Assembly: GCA_036971615.1 (NCBI GenBank)
Contig: JAYKKR010000002.1
Location: 3,782,001-3,846,000, forward strand
DNA: 64,000 bases
Direction of reading: 5' to 3'
From: Amyloporia xantha
Lineage: Eukaryota; Basidiomycota; Agaricomycetes; Polyporales; Adustoporiaceae
Position 1 is the first letter of the stretch; each line of letters opens with the position of its first letter. A program made the translations under genes and the position numbers. The notes beneath the pieces were generated by a model. It had not been told where the DNA came from. It searched no databases and worked only from the letters and a program-made list of their open reading frames with translations. Positions 35,439 through 40,276 of the stretch are shown here, piece by piece.

Positions 35439-37428
<1,990 letters not shown>

Positions 37429-37946
37429 GGTCGACGACGTGGACGATGTGGTGGTGGAATGACGAGACGAAGAGGTCGCCTATGGCCAGCAGAATAAAGT
37501 TCATTTTACGCTCAGCCAGACTCCGCTCCTCCCCGTGCCGGCTTGCTCCGATCCCCAGCGCGCCTTCCACACGTGCACCAGCTGCAGGCCACTCTCGCTT
37601 CTCAACAGACCGCATTTCTCGTTGACCTCAATCACTCGAGCCAGACATAACGACAATATCTACGAGGGTTCCTATGAGAGTGTCAACGAACTTCTGCTGC
37701 AGTCAAATTCGTGTGCCAATGGTCCTGCGTGAGACCTCGGACACCGCATCCGCGTCGCGCGACGCGCCACCGGGACATGGTTGCCGGACCGCGGTTGCAA
37801 TGCCATAGGCAAAAATTTTGAAGTTCCTGGACGTAATGGAGCTACAATCTTATATACGCACGTTCGTATCCCCCGCAGGCTGTTGAAGTAGGCGGATCCG
37901 TGTCGATACCCTCTATTTATCCAGCAGAAGTAGCTGGCCATTCTAG
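37429..37946. promoter_or_regulatory. Divergent promoter region of ATP2 and ADE4
   Basis: The 518-bp spacer separates two divergent start codons. It contains a perfect 16-bp palindrome CGCGTCGCGCGACGCG at 37751-37766, the strongest example of the GC motif repeated upstream of genes in this window. No gene is supported. Confidence 0.6.
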
Positions 37947-39932
37947 AGTAAGTGCATCCGTCAGGAATCAGCGATGGCTGCTCACGAAGTGACCTGCGGA
38001 CAGTGTGTGGCATCCTAGGTCTTCTCCTGCACGATCCGAGCATCGACGCAGCCTCAGAAATCTGCGAGGGGTTATCGCTTCTCCAGCATCGCGGACAAGA
38101 TGCGTGCGGCATCGTCACTTGCGGGCCCAAGGGGCGTTTCTACCAGTGCAAAGCGAACGGCATGGTCAGGGACGTCTTTGATTCTAACGCATTGACGTCC
38201 CTGGTCGGCGGGATGGGCATCGGACATGGTTCGTGATGTCCTTCTACTCCAGCATACATTGCTAAGTCCATGGGATGTCCAGTGCGATACCCCACTGCGG
38301 GCAGCTCCCACCACGCCGAGGCGCAGCCGTTCTACGTCAACTCTCCGTATGGCATTGTCTTCGCGCATGTAAGCAGCTCCTTATGCGCGACACTTGACTA
38401 CTAACAGCACTCCAGAACGGCAACCTGATCAACACCGCGTCCCTGTTGCAATTTATGGATGCCACTGCGCACCGACACATCAACACCTCGTCGGACTCAG
38501 AATTGCTCCTCAACATTTTCGCAGATAACCTGCAGAAGACAGGAAAGTTCCGAATTAACGAAGAGGATATCTTCACCGCCATCGGCGGGCTGATGGAGCA
38601 GTGCAAGGGCGCATATGCGTGTGTTGCAATGCTCGCCGGTTTCGGCATCATCGCGTTCAGAGATCCGAACGGCATCCGGCCTGTAGGGATGAGCTCGCGG
38701 AAAGCGCAAGGTAGCGCATCGGGCAGGGACTACCTGTTCGCCAGCGAGAGTGTCGTCGCCGATGCGAGCGGCTTCGGAGATTGGGAAGACGTGAAACCTG
38801 GTGAGAAATGCGGCTGCCATGAAATAATCACCGCATGTGATTCTGATGTTGATCTAGGCGAGGCTGTTATCATTACACGCAACAGCGTCAGTCGCCGGAT
38901 AGTCGCCCAGCCTGCCCCTTTCGCGCCGGACATCTTCGAATATGTGTACTTCGCCCGCCCAGACTCCGTCCTGGATGGCGTGAGCGTGTATCGGAGCCGC
39001 ATGGCAATGGGCGATGCCCTCGCTGAGGAGGTCCAACGGGTGCTCACTGAGAAGGGGCTGTCTGTCGATGTTGTTATTCCAGTCAGTGACCCCAACATAC
39101 ACCTGACTGCTAGCTGACGGTGTATCGTAGGTCCCGGACACATCCCGAGTCGCTGCGTTGAACCTCGCACAGAAGCTGAACGTGCCCTACCGAGAGGGAT
39201 TTATCAAAAACCGCTATGTTGGGCGAACATTTATTATGCCCGGGCAGCAAATGAGGCATGTAATGTTGACCTAAACATGCATAATCTGGGCTTATGTTTC
39301 GCTCACAGACGCAAAAACGTTCGACGAAAGTTGAACGCAATGGCACTCGAGTTCGCTAACAAAAATGTTCTCATTGTCGATGGTACGGACACTTCCGCGT
39401 CTCTCTCGGCACAACTGATTGTGTGCTAGACTCGATCGTGCGGGGCACGACATCGAAGGAGATCATCCAGATGGCGAAGGACGTCGGCGCGAAGAAAGTC
39501 ATCGTCGCCAGCTGCGCGCCGCCAATACGATACTCGAACGTCTACGGGATTGACATGCCCTCGCGCTCCGAGCTCGTCGCGCATAACCGCACTACCGACT
39601 CCATCGCGCAGACGATCGGGGCGGACCTTGTCATCTTCCAGACGCTCCCTGATCTCATCGCGTCCGTGCGGCAGTTCAATCCGTCGATCCCACAGTTTGA
39701 CTGCTCGGTGTTCACGGGTGAGTACGTCACGGGGGGCGTGGACGAGGAGTACCTCGGGCGGCTGGAGCAGGTGCGTGCCGACAACACGAGCGCGAAGATC
39801 GCCCGGTCGAATGGGATCGCCGGGGGTCCCGATGTCGTGCTGGAGAGCAGAGAGCTCGCGCTTGGCTGCAGCGGGCCTATGAACGGTGCCGATGATACCG
39901 TAGGTTTGCATAATAGTTGGAAATTAAGTTGA
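37947..39932 (+). CDS. ADE4: Amidophosphoribosyltransferase (first step of purine synthesis)
   Basis: Eight exons (37947; 38004-38228; 38283-38368; 38416-38800; 38858-39081; 39131-39255; 39309-39382; 39430-39932) sum to 1,623 nt, giving 540 residues. The start codon is split: A at 37947 and TG after a 56-bp GTAAGT intron. The spliced protein begins [11 protein letters not shown], with the catalytic N-terminal Cys of the glutamine amidotransferase domain. Typical motifs follow: [51 protein letters not shown], and the PRPP site [11 protein letters not shown]. Intron 6 must start with GCATGT (GC-AG), since only ATGAG|A restores [17 protein letters not shown]. The enzyme makes 5-phosphoribosylamine from PRPP and glutamine in the cytosol. 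Confidence 0.95.
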
Positions 39933-40174: not shown

Positions 40175-40276
40175 GCCATCGTGGCGCAATGGTAGCGCAT
40201 CACCTTCCTACTATGTGTGCATGCACAAGGGAGATGAAACAGGTGGGGGTTGCGGGTTCGATCCCCGTCGGTGGTA
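40175..40276 (+). tRNA. tRNA-Arg(CCT) with a 30-nt intron
   Basis: Acceptor GCCATCG pairs with CGGTGGT (two G-U pairs), discriminator A at 40276. The D arm is GCGC-AATGGTA-GCGC. The anticodon stem TCACC/GGTGG closes a loop TTCCTA with anticodon CCT at 40207-40209. The intron is 40211-40240, and its AGGGA can pair with UUCCU of the loop, as expected of a pre-tRNA. The T arm is GCGGG-TTCGATC-CCCGT. It resembles the yeast tRNA-Arg(CCU) body. The intron holds a 12-bp palindrome TGTGCATGCACA. Confidence 0.93.

Follow-up and report, generated by a model that had tools for sequence, protein, structure and literature searches.

Background

Introns that disrupt the start codon, i.e. introns in phase 1 or 2 at codon 1, are relatively rare according to the excerpt used here of the survey by Nielsen and Wernersson 2006 (PMC1626468). 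Like the case described below, the survey concerns introns inside the ATG, and fungi are included; unlike it, positions are counted over many genes, and the excerpt mentions neither ADE4 nor conservation throughout a class. In Yarrowia lipolytica, 42 introns have their donor directly after one of the three bases of the start codon and are spliced with high efficiency (PMC13309789, in excerpt). Here, too, the donor follows a base of the start codon, as in intron 1 of ADE4, whereas Yarrowia is an ascomycete yeast and the excerpt treats these introns as a pooled category, from which the cases after A are not separated. Start-codon introns are already known as a rare gene anatomy, and the split ADE4 start adds a further case. 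No open-licence paper that we found describes a split ADE4 start in its title or the beginning of its abstract; the part that we did not find in print is the apparent conservation of the split throughout the class.

Gene callers that search for an ATG will overlook a start codon that is made by splicing. If the split is indeed class-wide, the N-terminus of an essential enzyme would have to be revised in public genomes, and the gene would offer a clean example with which to ask why an intron persists for so long in a costly place.

Gene model and start codon

The gene lies in a window of 64,000 nucleotides from Amyloporia xantha, by which we mean the whole stretch of DNA that was analysed. All eight exons keep the frame, as the initial annotation had stated, and the spliced model on the plus strand (1,623 nt including the stop codon; Table 1) gives a protein of 540 aa. 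The curated model TIGR01134 (NCBIfam purF equivalog) matches over the full length with 442.8 bits against a cut-off of 350, which places the protein in the amidophosphoribosyltransferase (PurF/Ade4) family. Six relatives with 81-95% identity could be aligned to the protein over all of its exon junctions; its nearest named relative among the matches listed is Wolfiporia cocos (Polyporales). The second residue, Cys2, aligns with residue 1 of the solved PurF chains 1ecb and 1gph, and would be residue 1 of the mature enzyme if Met1 is removed. As in the rest of the family, it would then be the catalytic nucleophile. A second allele or a paralogue was looked for in the genome, and only one locus was found.

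Table 1. Features of the ADE4 locus; positions are those of the window
Feature	Position	Strand	Basis
Exon 1, coding part: single base A of the split start codon	37947..37947	+	direct reading, spliced model
Intron 1, 56 nt, GTAAGT...CTCAC...CAG, splits ATG after A (phase 1)	37948..38003	+	sequence; supported by relatives
Branch-point-like CTCAC, with its A 19 nt from the end of intron 1	37981..37985	+	likeness to the branch-point consensus
Out-of-frame ATG with 14-codon frame, in unspliced RNA only, ending 15 nt into exon 2	37974..38018	+	sequence
Exon 2, begins TG-TGT-GGC (rest of Met1, then Cys2)	38004..38228	+	spliced model, relatives' alignment
Exon 3	38283..38368	+	spliced model, relatives' alignment
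Exon 4	38416..38800	+	spliced model, relatives' alignment
Exon 5	38858..39081	+	spliced model, relatives' alignment
Exon 6, followed by an apparent GC-AG intron (39256-39308)	39131..39255	+	spliced model, relatives' alignment
Exon 7	39309..39382	+	spliced model, relatives' alignment
Exon 8, including the stop codon	39430..39932	+	spliced model, relatives' alignment

At the level of sequence, we could confirm the prediction that the ADE4 start codon is assembled as A/TG across intron 1. By direct reading, a GTAAGT donor (37948-37953) stands directly after the A at 37947, the CAG acceptor ends at 38003, and the TG at 38004-38005 is followed by TGT at 38006; joining 37947 to 38004 gives ATG-TGT-GGC-ATC, the Met-Cys start that had been proposed. 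Intron 1 is, at this level, a spliceosomal GT-AG intron whose removal creates an ATG. A TATA-like TATATA begins upstream at 37851. The context of the spliced start is weak, with T at both -3 and +4. Since the split after A requires that the last base of the exon is A and not the usual G, the exonic part of the donor is weakened, for which the complete consensus in its intronic part may compensate.

Two other origins of the Met-Cys start were rejected. A donor at 37929 (AA/GTAGCT) would also yield A/TG, with an A at -3, and is farther from the donor consensus than GTAAGT. A contiguous ATG lost to a sequencing error was ruled out by the relatives, which carry Val at the same place (see below). 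As this otherwise intact gene, the only ADE4 locus found in the genome, has no contiguous ATG in front of it, and as the ATG is likewise missing in relatives, the split goes beyond chance. Nor does the need for Met-Cys as such cause a split: the class II glutamine amidotransferase genes L001 (GFAT-like), L002 and L003 of the same genome likewise begin Met-Cys, and unlike ADE4 all three have a contiguous ATG-TGT, as judged by eye. The description of Met-Cys as obligatory fits the fungal relatives, but is too wide for the whole enzyme family.

If intron 1 is retained, the frame upstream of the Cys codon is open back to a TAA at 37949-37951 and contains no ATG. The claim that unspliced RNA has no in-frame ATG is true up to codon 54 of the protein, where the next one is found (38162). 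The out-of-frame ATG reported within the intron does open 14 codons that end just inside exon 2, although it begins at 37974 and not at 37973; its context has G at both -3 and +4. Three near-cognate codons precede the Cys in frame, namely GTG 37952, CTG 37994 and GTG 38003.

Elsewhere in the gene, intron 6 appears to be a GC-AG intron (GAG/GCATGT...CACAG); this junction is favoured by the frame and by the residues MRRKNV or MRKKNV of relatives.

The start codon in relatives

Conservation was read from predicted proteins of relatives rather than from the DNA of their splice sites. Gene callers that do not splice extend exon 2 back into the intron in metagenome proteins, and the residue before the Cys then tells the two cases apart: a contiguous start gives Met, whereas A/TG after an AG acceptor gives GTG, that is Val. 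With the window's own read-through frame as query we obtained 206 proteins at E <= 0.001, the best 120 of which were scored. These rows are clusters at 90% identity, mostly from metagenomes, which share ancestry and whose membership of the Agaricomycetes is inferred from similarity.

Among the best 120 of 206, the codon before the catalytic Cys is Val in all 70 informative rows and Met in none. The initial annotation had suggested that this junction be compared in other basidiomycetes; in these relatives the pattern is the one that a G/TG acceptor predicts, as far as predicted proteins tell. The informative rows comprise 48 ORFs that extend upstream of the codon (Val in 48/48) and 22 from the jgi source among the 72 that start at it (V in 22/22); the first residue varies in this source, with V in 27, L in 4 and M in 5 of 36 rows. 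The remaining 50 of the 120 are uninformative, as they begin with M and come from sources that show M as the first residue in 84/84 rows.

The residue before Val can be compared with the end of an intron. In 40 of the 48 upstream-extending ORFs it is one that fits a YAG end (S, P, T, A, L, I, V), against a background of 55% among the other upstream residues (binomial 3e-5). The remaining eight have K or E, as an AAG end would give; with both kinds of end the fit is 48/48 against 64% (6e-10), for a set that was widened after K and E had been seen. Both probabilities are guides only, since the rows are related. The translated intron ends share no motif: the 44 rows that are long enough have 36 different endings of four residues, and only small groups share RFTV or QLEV/QLKV before the Cys. 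Taken from these proteins, the split start codon looks conserved in Agaricomycetes.

We also compared full-length proteins, using the nearest 120 of 7,999 scored. In this set 87 begin exactly Met-Cys, which fits a contiguous ATG and a split start equally well, and 15 have an extension that ends in Met before the Cys. Val precedes the Cys in nine and Leu in four, one begins at the Cys itself, and four have no Cys in place. The 14 listed without a Met before the Cys include five that are labelled partial by their source. The nine Val-bearing proteins are from named Agaricomycetes: Heterobasidion (Russulales), Serpula (Boletales), Hysterangium (Hysterangiales), Sistotremastrum (Sistotremastrales), Pleurotus ostreatus PC15, Tricholoma furcatifolium and three Suillus. 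Suillus likewise belongs to Boletales, and Pleurotus and Tricholoma belong to Agaricales.

Five jgi contigs of relatives (1.7-2.1 kb), each with an unbroken ORF of 538-550 aa, are probably cDNA. All five ORFs begin with M, followed by Cys in four and by Ser in one (P0038).

One of the proteins compared, P0112 from Astraeus odoratus, has extra domains and an N-terminus unlike Ade4, and is probably a fusion of gene models. The extra domains are presumably those of S-adenosylmethionine synthetase, as judged from their Pfam numbers.

Controls were taken from outside the group. The search of genome contigs for the DNA of relatives left 80 bacterial purF loci, all of which were used apart from two partial ones; ATG stands before the Cys in 77/78 and GTG in 1/78. 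The same search in viral contigs found no loci of relatives. The N-terminus of yeast Ade4 as query gave 408 proteins, from which the best 120 were taken; one was already in the read-through list, and 52 of the 119 new rows carry a fungal-like motif that was chosen by us. Among the matches listed, the six strictly informative fungal-like rows have Met five times, Arg once and Val never; if four clusters shared by jgi and another source are included (n = 10), the counts are nine, one and zero. Because these controls differ from the read-through set, Val before the Cys is not something that ORF calls of this kind produce in general.

Two fungal-like ORFs differ from the pattern. P0298, which is basidiomycete-like by eye, has a literal Met before the Cys, so that the split may not extend to all basidiomycetes. 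The Arg row mentioned above, P0246, has Leu-Phe-Arg before the catalytic Cys; this one protein would fit an independent AT/G split start in another lineage.

Constitutive splicing and alternative explanations

The best explanation of the ADE4 split, to which we assign a probability of about 0.85, would be an inherited start-codon intron that is old in Agaricomycetes and undergoes ordinary constitutive splicing. A short GT-AG intron would interrupt the start codon after its A, and splicing would join this A to TG, creating the only ATG able to start the enzyme and placing the catalytic Cys at position 2. A common ancestor of many Agaricomycetes probably already had the intron at this position, which was then kept; the bacterial and most of the ascomycete-type relatives seen here start on a contiguous ATG. 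Unspliced messages would have no normal start and would carry the 14-codon upstream frame, and are probably wasted or degraded. The sequence anatomy, the reading frame and the Val/Met pattern of relatives are observed; that splicing is always efficient, that the intron is old and what becomes of unspliced RNA are the parts which we infer. Retention of intron 1 differs in kind from that of the other introns, in that it means no start rather than an early stop.

The initial annotation saw in intron 1 a possible regulatory gate, the retention of which would be tuned to purine supply and would switch the first enzyme of the pathway off. Such a gate could draw on the lack of an in-frame ATG before codon 54, on the intronic ATG with its G at both -3 and +4 and on the apparent conservation of the intron position. 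In another basidiomycete, Cryptococcus, the intron/exon transcription ratio exceeds 0.05 for more than 11.4% of introns (PMC3990503, in excerpt). On the other hand, weak sites would be expected of a regulated intron, and intron 1 has a good branch-like site and, as the only one of the seven introns, GTAAGT. The other donors are GTTCGT, GTAAGC, GTGAGA, GTCAGT, GCATGT and GTACGG, which makes that of intron 1 the closest to the consensus (by eye) and points to efficient constitutive splicing. Moreover, while retention of intron 4 would add 19 residues, that of intron 2, 3, 5, 6 or 7 would truncate the protein to 77, 115, 318, 354 or 388 residues, so that intron 1 is not the sole step that depends on splicing; and the translated intron ends of relatives have no common motif. 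The gate is thus not supported, and we regard it as improbable. Equally improbable is a conserved checkpoint, by which the split would have been kept through Agaricomycetes since only processed mRNA gives a free N-terminal Cys, with a splicing rate that may follow the purine state. Less far from the preferred reading, and compatible with it, is the idea that an intron near the start is kept because it raises expression, its place inside the ATG being incidental. When ble was placed behind the A. bisporus gpdII promoter in Coprinopsis cinerea, its expression required an intron after the second codon (PMC7552465, in excerpt), and by this analogy we consider such a role possible, if tentative.

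Two further alternatives would yield enzyme by another route. PurF of B. subtilis and of human has a short propeptide that is removed during maturation. With this, and as the near-cognate codons lie in a frame that is open from the TAA to the Cys, initiation at GTG 37952, CTG 37994 or GTG 38003 of unspliced RNA might give some enzyme as well, so that the claim that retention turns the enzyme fully off is too strong. Even so, we think such initiation very unlikely, as the intronic ATG lies upstream of the CTG and of the second GTG and would capture many scanning ribosomes. Least probable of all the readings is a hidden upstream exon, from which an ATG farther upstream would start an extended enzyme with a propeptide that is then removed. 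With ATGs from 37430 on, GT donors only and introns of 36-400 nt, 40 one-intron models in frame with the Cys are possible, all of which produce N-terminal extensions, and in 24 of the nearest 120 proteins listed the Cys is preceded by an extension longer than two residues (which ends in Met in 15, Val in 5 and Leu in 4). However, each of the 40 models needs an intron of at least 71 nt and a donor other than GTAAGT, the extensions vary between genera as judged by eye, and Met is the first residue, directly ahead of the Cys position, both in the majority of the nearest 120 and in all five contigs that are probably transcripts.

Neighbouring genes

A divergent gene at 36600-37450 on the minus strand belongs to the ATP synthase alpha/beta family (Pfam ATP-synt_ab_N and ATP-synt_ab) and probably encodes the mitochondrial beta subunit. 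It has a common intergenic stretch of about 500 bp with ADE4, as estimated from an inferred start of the ATP synthase gene. Just downstream of ADE4, at 40175-40276 on the plus strand, there is a tRNA gene (Rfam, 49.4 bits) that was missed by ARAGORN as run; from its length of 102 bases, it probably contains an intron.
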